This document shows, in pieces, positions 10,497 to 14,117 of a DNA stretch of 41,521 nucleotides. Both the position numbers and the translations under genes were made by a program. Location: the IMG/VR virus record IMGVR_UViG_3300031227_000126, positions 1 to 41,521 of that record. The stretch is one strand, 5' to 3'. The notes below the pieces were generated by a model, which worked only from the letters and a program-made list of their open reading frames with translations, did no database searches and was not told where the DNA came from. The DNA comes from a virus. The number at the start of each line of letters is the position of its first letter. Position 1 is the stretch's first letter.

Positions 10497-10520
10497 GGCT
10501 GCCCCCTTCCAGAAAAACGT

Positions 10521-10603
10521 GATGGCTGACGGGACTCGAACCCGCAACAAGGTCGTGTTTTACGCTTGCAAGCCCTTTGCTTTGCCAGTTAAGCTACAGC
10601 CAC
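10521..10603 (-). tRNA. tRNA-like element with irregular anticodon arm
   Basis: Read on the minus strand, GTGGCTG and CAGCCAT form a 7-bp acceptor stem (one G-T pair). TA separates it from a D arm with GCTT/AAGC stem and a GG in the loop. The T arm is GCGGG-TTCGAGT-CCCGT, with a perfect T loop. The part between, 33 bases, does not fold into a normal 5-bp stem with 7-base loop. CTTGCAA (a proper loop with anticodon TGC, alanine) is present, but the AAGG/CCTT stem pairs only if 12-13 extra bases are ignored. No CCA is encoded. It may be a decayed tRNA, a tRNA with an insertion, or a tRNA-derived signal. It lies between two leftward genes. Confidence 0.55.
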
Positions 10604-10617
10604 CACATTAGTCTAAC

Positions 10618-11469
10618 TTACTTAGCGAAAACACCTACCTCAGAGATCACGGTCTCAGTGATCTTGGACCAGTCAGCGGCCTTGATTGCCTCTTCACTCT
10701 GTCCAGGAGCAACAGCATACATCGCTCTTGTGAAGGCTGTCGCCAACTGCTCATCTGAAACTCCGTCAGCTTTCCTGGTACAACATTCAGCCCATGATCC
10801 TTCATACGTAGCAGTGTCATTAGCTACGGCAACGGGAAGCTCCAGCACTGCGGCTGCGGCTGCTGCCTCAGTCTCTGCGGCCTCGGCTGTAGGAGCAGCG
10901 GGGGGTTTTGGGGCTGCGGCTTTCTTCGTTGTCTTCTTCGTAACGGCCTTCTTCGGAGTAACAGGAAGTGCGGTCGGTGCCTTGGCCGATGCTACTTTCG
11001 GTGCCCCGCCCAGTTTCTTGAGGGCGGCACCATATTTAGCACCCAACGCACCGAGTTCAGCGGCGTCGAGTTTCTTCAAAGAGTTGCCCGGTTCGTCGTT
11101 GTAGCCGCGGATGTTCTGTACCTGCATCGAAGTCTTATCATCGTAAGTATGCTCGGCAACCTCGAACTGAACTTCCGCTCCTTCAAGATCAAGCCCGTTC
11201 AAACCGACGAGAGAAACTCCGTCCCACTCGAATACCCGCATGATATCCTTAGTGTGGAAGATCGGGTTGCCACTCTTACCAAACAGCACGAGATAGCTGG
11301 TAATTTCATTATCCTCTTCCTGGTAAGGCAACCATACTTTCTCTTCGGCGTCATAGAATTCCAACGCACGCATCTTCACCACAAACTGCGGAAGCCCGCT
11401 GCTTGTGGCCCCTACTGCACTCTCCAATACGACACCACGATACGATGCTGCTCTTGTAATCATACTCAT
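10618..11469 (-). CDS. Putative single-stranded DNA-binding/replication accessory protein, 283 aa
   Basis: The N-terminal 125 residues look beta-rich (GLPQFVVKMRALEFYD, ITSYLVLFGKSGNP), as in phage SSB-like proteins that list the DNA bound and its modifications. The middle (about 150-210) is a low-complexity K/A/P/T linker, and the C-terminal 70 residues form a separate helical domain. It directly follows the RecA-like ATPase and its inserted neighbour. In many phages a Sak4-type ATPase is paired with an SSB, which is the main reason for this call; no OB-fold signature is certain. A GGAGA site precedes the ATG. Confidence 0.45.
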   Translation of the reverse strand: MSMITRAASYRGVVLESAVGATSSGLPQFVVKMRALEFYDAEEKVWLPYQEEDNEITSYLVLFGKSGNPIFHTKDIMRVFEWDGVSLVGLNGLDLEGAEVQFEVAEHTYDDKTSMQVQNIRGYNDEPGNSLKKLDAAELGALGAKYGAALKKLGGAPKVASAKAPTALPVTPKKAVTKKTTKKAAAPKPPAAPTAEAAETEAAAAAAVLELPVAVANDTATYEGSWAECCTRKADGVSDEQLATAFTRAMYAVAPGQSEEAIKAADWSKITETVISEVGVFAK

Positions 11470-11498
11470 TTTCTGTCTCCAATAAAAATTAGTTTTTG

Positions 11499-11555
11499 TT
11501 AATCGGCAAACAAGAACTTCCAGATGGAGTCGTCCTTTGCCTCTTCAAAACAGTA
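11499..11555 (-). pseudogene. Remnant of a second RecA-like ATPase C-terminus
   Basis: Directly downstream of the 165-residue gene, a short minus-strand frame reads F-E-E-A-K-D-D-S-I-W-K-F-L-F-A-D-stop. The intact ATPase ends F-D-D-P-K-D-N-S-I-W-T-F-L-F-E-E-G-G-stop. The pattern F-x-x-x-K-D-x-S-I-W-x-F-L-F is shared and both end within four residues, while the DNA has diverged. There is no start codon or ribosome site, so it is not a gene. It looks like the original 3' end of the ATPase gene, displaced by insertion of the intervening gene, or the tail of a deleted paralogue. Confidence 0.7.
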
Positions 11556-11556
11556 T

Positions 11557-12054
11557 TTACTTTTTAATATACATATCAGGATATTCTTCTGGGGGCCAGA
11601 TTTCTTCTTTAGAAAGAACGTCTAACCCACCTGCAAATTTATGAAGTTCTTCAACAGAATCAGAGTCTAACACCTGCTTAAATCTCGCCTTAATTTTGGC
11701 ATCAGGCATAGCTTTCATTATAGTTTTTAACTGAGAAAGAAAGTTCGGGAATTGCGGAGCCTTATCGGAAGTAACGACTAATTTATTATCCCCGATACGC
11801 TCGACAATATCAACAGGAAAATTAAACCCGGTATCTACAACCTGAGATAAGTATTTTAATGAAGAACTCCTACATCGCACGCCAGCATTGAGGTCTAACT
11901 GCTTTAACTGGCCGGGGGTCATTGATTTCCAGTTTCTTGGCCCCACTTTAATCCCTGTTTCATTAAGTATTGCGATAATTTTTTCGACCCTGCTATCGTC
12001 TATATGCCACTCTAATCTTTTAGAATAGTTTATCGTTACAACATTACTCGGCAT
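11557..12054 (-). CDS. Hypothetical protein, 165 aa, apparently inserted gene
   Basis: A strong GGAAGGAGG site precedes ATG 12054, which lies 1 base after the ATPase stop. The protein is soluble and helical, with basic and acidic residues mixed; I recognise no domain. The gene is more A+T-rich than its neighbours. It is flanked by the intact ATPase 3' end upstream and a diverged second copy of that 3' end downstream, which suggests it arrived as a cassette. No HNH, GIY-YIG or LAGLIDADG homing endonuclease motif was seen, so how it arrived is unknown. Confidence 0.65.
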   Translation of the reverse strand: MPSNVVTINYSKRLEWHIDDSRVEKIIAILNETGIKVGPRNWKSMTPGQLKQLDLNAGVRCRSSSLKYLSQVVDTGFNFPVDIVERIGDNKLVVTSDKAPQFPNFLSQLKTIMKAMPDAKIKARFKQVLDSDSVEELHKFAGGLDVLSKEEIWPPEEYPDMYIKK

Positions 12055-12055
12055 G

Positions 12056-12946
12056 CTATCCTCCTTCCTCGAATAAGAACGTCCAAATTGAATTGTCTTT
12101 CGGATCATCAAACGCAACAACAGCTTTATCAGGCCCAAGAGTACGAGACTTCGCTCGGAAGTGAGGCTGCGGGTGTACGAAAACTGCACGTTTATTCTCA
12201 CCGCCCGTAACCTTTCTGTTATCAACAGACAGGAACTGGTAGCCGATACGAAAAATATGATCGGCCCATTCACAGTACAGAGCTTCAATCGACGGGGTAC
12301 CAGAAAATAGACGCGGGCCTTCACGTAGGAAGTCTTCACCACCAGGGTTAGCTACCTTGTTCGGTGCCATCTGAGCGATAATGATGACATTCTTACCACG
12401 GTGGATGAGCGAATCAGCATCTTGCAGGATCAACTTCATAGTATCGTACATGTGGCGATAGCCTTTGTTGTACCCATACCGTATGATGTTATCCATCTTC
12501 GCGCCCTTGTCGTTGGTAATCGTCGCAAGTATATGAGTGACGGCCCACTCTTCAAGGTAAGTCGCTTGATCGAGTACCACTGTCTCATCATCCTGATAAA
12601 TATCGGCAAGCATAGCGGCACGTACATCACCAAAGCATTCTACACCTGGGACGTGACGCAGTTTATTACCTGCTGCATTGATGAGCAATTTACCGCCGTC
12701 ATCTACGCCGATGAACACCGGCTTTGGTGCAAGGCTTGCAAGAGTTGTCTTTCCCATACCCGATTCACCATAGAGCAGAATCCTCTTTCCATCCTTTGAA
12801 GAGTCCCAGTCCGCGATCATAAAATCCTTTGCCGGGATTGCAGTAGCCTTTGCCTTCGGTGCAGCCGGTGGCCGGGCACTTGCTGGACCCTTTGGTTTAC
12901 CCTTAGCTTTGGGCGGCTTCGGTATTTCTCGTTTCTTTACTGCCAT
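12056..12946 (-). CDS. RecA-like (Sak4-type, AAA_24) ATPase/recombinase, 296 aa
   Basis: After a basic proline/alanine-rich tail (1-40) comes a RecA-fold core. Walker A is GESGMGKTT (60-68), Walker B ETVVLD (121-126), and a hydrophobic strand VIIIAQ (187-192) matches the sensor strand with its glutamine. The layout fits phage Sak4 single-strand annealing/recombination ATPases, which work with an SSB and an exonuclease. Here a PD-(D/E)XK nuclease gene lies immediately upstream, overlapping by 44 bases, and an SSB-like gene lies downstream. It could also act as a replication-associated ATPase. Start chosen at the first ATG with AAGGA upstream. Confidence 0.8.
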   Translation of the reverse strand: MAVKKREIPKPPKAKGKPKGPASARPPAAPKAKATAIPAKDFMIADWDSSKDGKRILLYGESGMGKTTLASLAPKPVFIGVDDGGKLLINAAGNKLRHVPGVECFGDVRAAMLADIYQDDETVVLDQATYLEEWAVTHILATITNDKGAKMDNIIRYGYNKGYRHMYDTMKLILQDADSLIHRGKNVIIIAQMAPNKVANPGGEDFLREGPRLFSGTPSIEALYCEWADHIFRIGYQFLSVDNRKVTGGENKRAVFVHPQPHFRAKSRTLGPDKAVVAFDDPKDNSIWTFLFEEGG

Positions 12947-14117
12947 CTTTACGTTCCTTTCTGATTAAATTAGCGGGAAGCTCTCCATCTGGATCGATCC
13001 CATTGTAACACATATCTATGTACTCACAATGATACGTAGCCTCACACTGCTCTTCGCAATGATACCAGCAGCCGAGCTTCTCCATCGCACGCATCGCCTC
13101 AAAGACACCAAGTAGCTCACTGTGTACCCGATCCAATTCAGCGTCGGTCTTAGCAAGTTCCTTACGAGCGAAGTAATACTCAGGACGCTCTGCGATATCG
13201 GCGAGGAGTCTGTGCCCGTACATGTCGGGAGTCTCTTTAATCTTGAACTGTCCTGGTTTAGCCGTAAGCTCAACGTGGGCTATCTTTCCATCTACTACTA
13301 ACGCCAGTAAATCTCCATACGTTTCGCTTACTGTAAATTCTCCGCCGCAGTACTCACCGCTTTCAACAAATTTCTTACTGTCAGCGACGGACAAAAACTT
13401 CGGCTTGATCCCCGGCTTATGGAATACGTCATAATAAAACCCACTGATGTCGCCTTCGATATCCAACTCTGCTCGATCACGAAGTAGCCGGAGGACATAA
13501 GTGTATAGCGAAGTCTGCGTGTCCATCGTCAGCTTACCCCAGTACTTAGAATCCTGGGAGATAGAACTACCAGTAGTCTTATGCTCGACGACCATGTTAC
13601 CGGCATGCTTCACGATCTTGTCGATGATGCCGTCGATCAGCAGGTTAGGAACCATCCGATCTGTGTGCCCAGGAATCGGCGTGGAGAACTTGACCTCAGT
13701 ATGTATGACGTGAAGTGGTTCGTTCTGGTAGTACCAGTTGTAGCCAGCCGCAGCGTACAGTAACTTCGCCCGTTCCACAGCCCAATCTTCGGGAGCTACC
13801 GAGTTAGGAACAAGAGTATAAGCATCATCAATGACCCGTGTTACTGCTGTCATAATGTCATCGGGCACGAGTCCGCCGCCATCACAGATCGGGCAAGAGT
13901 CGAATCCTGGCTTCAACATGTCTACACACGGGCACGAGTCACCCGGCGTCAACGAAATAACTTCCATAATCTTGTGCCAGTTCGTGCCGTATCTAAAGTG
14001 GTCCGGTTCCTCTGCCCGCTTGATGTGCTTGATGTATTTCAAGTAGTACTTATACGGGCATTGTTTGAAGCACGAGATCGCTGTTGCTGATAACCTCCAT
14101 TTTTTTGGACTGCCCAT
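12903..14117 (-). CDS. PD-(D/E)XK exonuclease, RecB/Cas4-like, 404 aa
   Basis: The start SATAISCFKQCPYKYYLKYI is the typical N-terminal helix of Cas4/AddB-type PDDEXK_1 nucleases. Catalytic residues are visible: H48, D162 in LIDGIID, E178-H-K180 in VVEHKTT and Q201-x3-Y205. C20 plus the C-terminal cysteines (CWYHCEEQCEATYHC...C) could hold an iron-sulfur cluster as in Cas4. An extra cysteine module, C62-x-C64...C75-x2-C78-x-G-G-G, is inserted near residue 62 and looks like a zinc loop. An AGGAGA site supports the start. It likely resects DNA ends for the ATPase encoded next. Confidence 0.85.
   Translation of the reverse strand: MGSPKKWRLSATAISCFKQCPYKYYLKYIKHIKRAEEPDHFRYGTNWHKIMEVISLTPGDSCPCVDMLKPGFDSCPICDGGGLVPDDIMTAVTRVIDDAYTLVPNSVAPEDWAVERAKLLYAAAGYNWYYQNEPLHVIHTEVKFSTPIPGHTDRMVPNLLIDGIIDKIVKHAGNMVVEHKTTGSSISQDSKYWGKLTMDTQTSLYTYVLRLLRDRAELDIEGDISGFYYDVFHKPGIKPKFLSVADSKKFVESGEYCGGEFTVSETYGDLLALVVDGKIAHVELTAKPGQFKIKETPDMYGHRLLADIAERPEYYFARKELAKTDAELDRVHSELLGVFEAMRAMEKLGCWYHCEEQCEATYHCEYIDMCYNGIDPDGELPANLIRKERKDGSKETRNTEAAQS

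Follow-up and report, generated by a model that had tools for sequence, protein, structure and literature searches.

A stranded gene end behind a Sak4-like ATPase gene in a virus contig: a probable scar of one-sided recombination

The DNA analyzed here (the window) is a metagenomic virus contig of 41,521 nucleotides, IMG/VR record IMGVR_UViG_3300031227_000126. On its minus strand, an exonuclease gene is followed by a gene for a RecA-fold ATPase, an open reading frame (ORF) of 165 amino acids, 87 nt of leftover DNA, and a gene for a protein of 283 amino acids. The features of the locus are as follows.

12903 to 14117, minus strand: PD-(D/E)XK exonuclease gene, upstream of the ATPase gene (Pfam PDDEXK_1, 3.7e-20)
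12056 to 12946, minus strand: Sak4-like RecA-fold ATPase gene (AAA_24), 296 aa, intact (Pfam AAA_24, 1.4e-19; PHROG 124 Sak4-like, 1.2e-23)
12056 to 12112, minus strand: attached (in-use) ATPase 3' end, FDDPKDNSIWTFLFEEGG-stop (family C-terminal motif, alignment A1)
12060 to 12066, minus strand: Shine-Dalgarno sequence AAGGAGG serving the 165-aa gene, within the final codons of the ATPase gene (sequence)
11557 to 12054, minus strand: 165-aa cargo gene (ATG 12054-12052, stop 11559-11557)
11499 to 11549, minus strand: displaced native ATPase 3' end, FEEAKDDSIWKFLFAD-stop, start-less (24-bit C-terminal profile match)
11470 to 11498, minus strand: leader of the SSB-like gene, resembling that of relative L003 (CTAATTTTTATTGGAGACAGAAAATG in the window, CTAATAATTTTTATGGGAGACAAAAGATG in L003)
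10618 to 11469, minus strand: gene for a predicted OB-fold SSB-like protein, 283 aa, DUF669-like by fold (AlphaFold2 model and Foldseek)

The match of the ATPase to the Sak4-like profiles (PHROG 124/AAA_24) includes the P-loop, GESGMGKTT. Its C terminus reads AVVAFDDPKDNSIWTFLFEEGG-stop, and the 165-aa ORF begins one base past that stop. The ribosome site of this ORF, AAGGAGG (12066-12060), lies 5 nt from the ATG, and "exceptional," the word used for it in an earlier note on this DNA, is fair. Most members of the ATPase family end in F-x4-D-[DN]-S-[ILV]-W-x-[FL]-x-F, with the tryptophan invariant in an alignment of 19 ATPases (A1). The DDSIWxFxF portion has an acidic-hydrophobic character reminiscent of SSB tails, which end DDDIPF, and could be a partner-binding tip.

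What is the neighbor on the far side of the leftover DNA? Sequence-family searches with the 283-aa protein gave nothing of note. An AlphaFold2 model of its family (21 sequences) reached a mean pLDDT of 80, and Foldseek returned PrgE as the best PDB match (1.5e-5), followed by PriB and SSBs, with phage DUF669 proteins among the viral-library matches. Hutinel et al. (PMC5928155) describe DUF669 proteins adjoining sak4 genes as SSBs, and given these structural matches we call the product SSB-like, as a prediction from the model. Between this gene and the next ORF, at 10519-10604 (minus strand), there is a candidate tRNA gene for which ARAGORN gives a two-base anticodon and no amino acid.

The 165-aa protein is an orphan. 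Searches of Pfam, PHROGs, NCBIfam, PADLOC, PDB, and phages gave nothing above noise. No homologues turned up in pattern scans across viral contigs and genome contigs, and plasmid matches are partial and sub-threshold (E 0.7-0.9). No nuclease match appears in Pfam, NCBIfam, PHROGs, or PDB, in agreement with the earlier note, which had seen no homing endonuclease motif. A single-sequence AlphaFold2 model has a pLDDT of 40, too low for a fold search. The sole relative found is a 94-aa accessory protein (L177, positions 1501-1785 of IMGVR_UViG_3300009788_000133), whose N-terminal stretch is 50% identical to residues 1-36 and which diverges completely beyond, a pattern of modular accessory proteins. 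A scan with the shared 36-residue module returned the L177 contig only.

The earlier note described a duplicated 3' end of the ATPase gene flanking an extra gene, and every element of that arrangement was found. It counted 57 leftover bases; the start-less end is real, but, counting the stop, the remnant itself spans 51 nt and lies within the 87 nt that separate the 165-aa gene from the next ATG (11469). The remnant frame runs from 11549 to 11499 and has no start codon. When the C-terminal profile of the ATPase family was searched against 59,621 ORFs, the remnant scored 24.0 bits (E 7.5e-5), whereas the top score among 1,000 dinucleotide shuffles of the interval was 11.5 bits. In a six-frame scan of the relatives, the C-terminal motif occurs once, at the ATPase end, in nearly every one. 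It occurs twice only in the window and in L051.

Relatives reveal the arrangement before the interruption. In L001 and L002, which are among the closest relatives of the window (67 and 60% identity over the alignment), the SSB-like gene lies within tens of bases of an uninterrupted ATPase gene, as the earlier note had proposed to check; the remnant is therefore a displaced ATPase 3' end. A third relative, L003, has a different gene of about 60 codons between ATPase and SSB and no remnant. The bases from the remnant to the SSB start in the window are of the same leader type as those of L003, so that the remnant and SSB gene look like the native arrangement and the attached end and 165-aa gene like the newcomer.

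Could one end simply be a recent copy of the other? Across 14 codons, 12 of the 42 nt differ between the two, with 9 of the differences at third codon positions; five codon changes are synonymous. Differences placed mainly at third positions indicate two alleles and not a recent self-copy. Neutral drift from one copy keeps as many residues in about 2% of simulations (p about 0.02), and conservation above that level suggests that both ends were probably under selection, and functional, in separate genomes until recently.

To place the locus in its family, 98 nonredundant ATPase-to-SSB intervals were compiled, plus one row for the L051 remnant itself; a pattern scan found no close relatives of the ATPase in bacterial genomes. 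The intervals range from 5 nt to 1.8 kb. Their cargo includes SEC-C/zinc-ribbon proteins in 53, as well as Cpn10-like proteins, a methyltransferase-like protein, HNH endonucleases (in L067, L122, L107, and L111), and others. The first cargo ORF starts no more than 10 nt from the ATPase stop in 47 of 84 loci, and in 60 of 64 cases the cargo has a higher A+T content than the DNA around it. Judged by these intervals, the ATPase-SSB junction is a general cargo site. The 165-aa gene, at 38.4% G+C against 46.4% for the window, is indeed A+T-rich, as the earlier note had it, but given the 60 of 64 relatives this is a regional property and not a special trait; with tight coupling also common, the gene is ordinary for its site. 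No convincing SSB-like 5' remnants were seen in the intervals. At the interval start in L110 and L117, the SEC-C motif (CPCGx...KHCHGD) is split by about 30-36 extra residues within one open frame.

The scar recurs at this junction. In L051 (4898-6198), a start-less KSRTLDEPVISFSTKEDNSLWRLLFDKGE-stop follows shortly past the ATPase stop and scores 49.5 bits with the C-terminal profile. This 90-nt remnant is identical to the intact end in L162 at 82 of 90 nt (91%), and its best matches are the ATPases of the clade to which the L051 SSB gene belongs. The polymerase, exonuclease, SSB, and primase of L051 are 84-91% identical to those of L162/L092. The attached ATPase, by contrast, shares only 45% identity with theirs, against 66-68% with those of another clade. 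The native end clusters with close relatives and the attached end does not, the whole ATPase having been exchanged. By these comparisons, L051 is a xenologous ATPase replacement with the native 3' end (90 nt) left stranded, and neither a cargo gene nor a nuclease lies between the two ends. A small gene just upstream of the L051 ATPase has a single match (39%), in the clade of the attached ATPase, and perhaps also came from there. L033 shares the swapped ATPase, its native end reduced to AAAGGGGAATAG (12 nt). Incongruence between exchanged ATPase and flanks is clear in L051, while the 14-16 codons of the window's remnant are too short to be assigned to a clade.

How much of the ATPase was imported in the window? 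In the flanking genes the window matches L003 over L001 at 336 of 458 informative sites (336:122), whereas 43 of the 61 informative sites in the ATPase favor L001 (43:18). The L002/L003 ATPase is itself divergent, and this inflates the contrast between these counts (p 5e-11). In its first half, that ATPase is about 48-50% identical to the window and L001, against 66% between those two, which suggests a recombination history of its own. A likelihood topology test with outgroups (AU test, 5,000 resamplings, fewer than advised) rejected the grouping of the window with L001 for the exonuclease, SSB, and primase (p below 0.004). The ATPase tree mildly prefers that grouping, and with an AU p of 0.27 for the flank topology, vertical descent is not rejected. 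In view of that value and of the first-half divergence in L002/L003, import of the whole ATPase is a possibility only. We conclude from these comparisons that the exchange would have covered no less than the ATPase end plus the 165-aa gene. Of the ATPase, possibly the whole gene came in, or possibly its end only. The exonuclease gene, near whose 3' end the informative sites shift, is a possible candidate region for the left recombination joint. Elsewhere in these genomes, tblastn with the window polymerase splits near residue 410-419 in L001 and L003, the pieces lying about 0.6-1.1 kb apart, which suggests an insertion in their DNA polymerase genes.

The remnant is most probably the scar of a one-sided recombination with a related phage, homologous on the left and illegitimate on the right, that would have imported an ATPase end with its cargo. 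The proposed sequence of events is as follows. The remnant was once the 3' end of the ATPase gene, sak4-like, of the resident phage. DNA of a related phage, comprising at least the last ATPase codons, perhaps the whole gene, and the translationally coupled 165-aa gene, would have joined the resident genome by recombination. On the left, at a point within the ATPase or upstream of it, the joint would have been homologous and hence seamless; on the right it would have been illegitimate, breaking into the resident ATPase some 16 codons short of the stop. Those codons would then have been stranded, unexpressed, ahead of the SSB-like gene. The initiating break may have come from the phage's own annealing recombination or from a homing endonuclease now absent. 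We infer by analogy that the process seen in L051 made the scar in the window; no donor phage carrying the ATPase together with the 165-aa gene was found.

Precedents for the individual steps exist. One-sided homing and double-strand-break repair in T4 leave illegitimate second joints at microhomology (PMC2988022), and PMC2327257 and PMC5499656 describe annealing proteins as promoting recombination of diverged DNA. The exchanged gene itself is predicted from its sequence to encode a Sak4-type annealing recombinase. A search of PubMed Central (open-access papers) gave no directly matching report of stranded gene ends or sak4 ends in phages. The kind of event is already known and the case is cleanly documented; the interesting aspect is the recurrence of scars at one junction.

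The earlier note had read the locus as a cassette that lands at the 3' end of a gene with its own replacement end, by a mechanism that might be new. The uninterrupted genes of L001 and L002 and the diverged alleles bear out that reading in part, in that the remnant is a displaced ATPase end, but a special cassette targeting the 3' end is not needed. Neither is a new mechanism, since a general cargo site together with known one-sided recombination and its illegitimate second joint suffices, and L051 and L033 exchanged a whole ATPase without cargo between the ends. Because the incoming ATPase end contains the ribosome site of the 165-aa gene, the two would be inherited together with no need of a dedicated device.

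The leading alternative, though an unlikely one, is a mobile cassette that targets the ATPase 3' end and never comes without a replacement; its cargo would be the 165-aa protein, or the cut would have been made by a homing endonuclease since lost. An identical anatomy is known from fungal mitochondria, where an inserted C terminus and a mobile ORF precede the native C*-terminus (PMC3630166), and nuclease genes do occur at this junction. In L067, an HNH gene has a SEC-C stub, MGIKFKGP, upstream and a complete SEC-C gene downstream that possesses a 5' end of its own (the duplicate matching at 23 of 26 nt). In L122 (6972-7826), an HNH gene of the same family is likewise preceded by a SEC-C stub, here of 27 codons, and followed by a complete SEC-C gene. 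Both are of the HNH_3, AP2-like type and are located at the 5' end of SEC-C, whose start is duplicated, and a homing endonuclease is suspected of having made the break in each. L122 also has an ATPase-end-like stretch, SNIWRILFDEA, directly before the HNH start and overlapping the HNH ribosome site; its score of 11.4 bits is reached by 1 in 1,000 shuffles and expected about 0.1 times over 98 intervals, so that as a scar it is only suggestive. Against the cassette, (i) the 165-aa protein has no similarity to nucleases, (ii) the clearest ATPase-end scar, that of L051, has neither an inserted gene nor a nuclease between its ends, (iii) the HNH insertion points are unlike (codon 9 in L067, codon 27 in L122), and (iv) ATPase-end scars are rare, with two clear and one weak among the 98 intervals. 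A past role for a homing endonuclease at the window site is possible, such genes being present in the four relatives named, two of them with replaced gene ends. It is quite unlikely that mobile cargo units land at the Sak4-SSB junction of this phage family and regularly bring a replacement end for the neighbor gene with them, which would make them a phage counterpart of the mitochondrial C-terminal elements, the 165-aa protein being an unrecognized homing factor.

Tandem ATPase paralogues, the second deleted except for its last 16 codons as the 165-aa gene was gained, would formally yield the same anatomy. This is very improbable: two complete ATPases are not seen in any of the 98 intervals, the C-terminal motif occurs once per relative, and no relative has at this place the full second gene by which the earlier note would have been refuted. 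The window is a metagenomic contig, and a chimeric assembly or a chance similarity has to be considered, yet either would be quite surprising when 0 of 1,000 shuffles reach 24 bits, an assembler would not normally join at the non-identical sequence observed, and the same type of scar occurs in independent assemblies. There is next to no likelihood that the remnant is functional, through frameshifting, reinitiation, or as a cis-acting site, for although its frame, in +1 phase, extends back without a stop into the terminal part of the 165-aa gene, it has no start codon, inspection found no recognized +1 slippery site (frameshift translation was rejected on that ground), a comparable stretch is absent from most relatives, and hardly any is left in L033.

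What do such scars offer? One-sided recombination, as preferred here, would leave stranded gene ends that mark the nonhomologous joint, a readable fossil of phage gene swapping. In L051 and L033, one recombinase gene was exchanged while the native end stayed in place, so that the displacement of phage genes can be dated and oriented directly. For annotators, start-less fragments behind cargo genes may be gene ends and not new genes.

Several known systems resemble the locus in part. Like the Sak4-SSB recombination pair (PMC5928155), the window has a Sak4-like ATPase with a downstream gene for an OB-fold, DUF669-like SSB, here by its model; unlike that pair, in this phage family cargo genes often separate the two. 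Phage mosaic exchange (PMC2988022, PMC2327257, PMC5499656) likewise combines one seamless joint, at homologous or homeologous DNA, with one nonhomologous joint and swaps diverged alleles at gene ends, whereas for the window such an exchange is proposed from comparison. Free-standing phage homing endonucleases and HEG islands (PMC2988022, PMC10448857) lie, like the cargo here, in intergenic positions between conserved replication genes and overlap their neighbors, and homing genes are known at the boundaries of phage genetic exchange (PMC10448857); the window interval lacks such a gene, but HNH genes occupy the same junction in the four relatives, and the HNH-associated cases link such scars to endonuclease-driven transfer. 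Finally, mobile ORFs with C-terminal duplications are reported from fungi, in Allomyces atp6 and in Glomus atp6, atp9, cox2, and nad3 (PMC3630166). These have a foreign 3' end in frame, an extra ORF, and the native 3' end stranded downstream, and in the window, too, a diverged replacement end is in frame and the native end lies stranded past an inserted ORF. Theirs encode LAGLIDADG or GIY-YIG endonucleases, whereas the ORF in the window is an orphan without nuclease motifs; by analogy, the locus looks like a mitochondrial C-terminal-duplication element, short of being identified as one.
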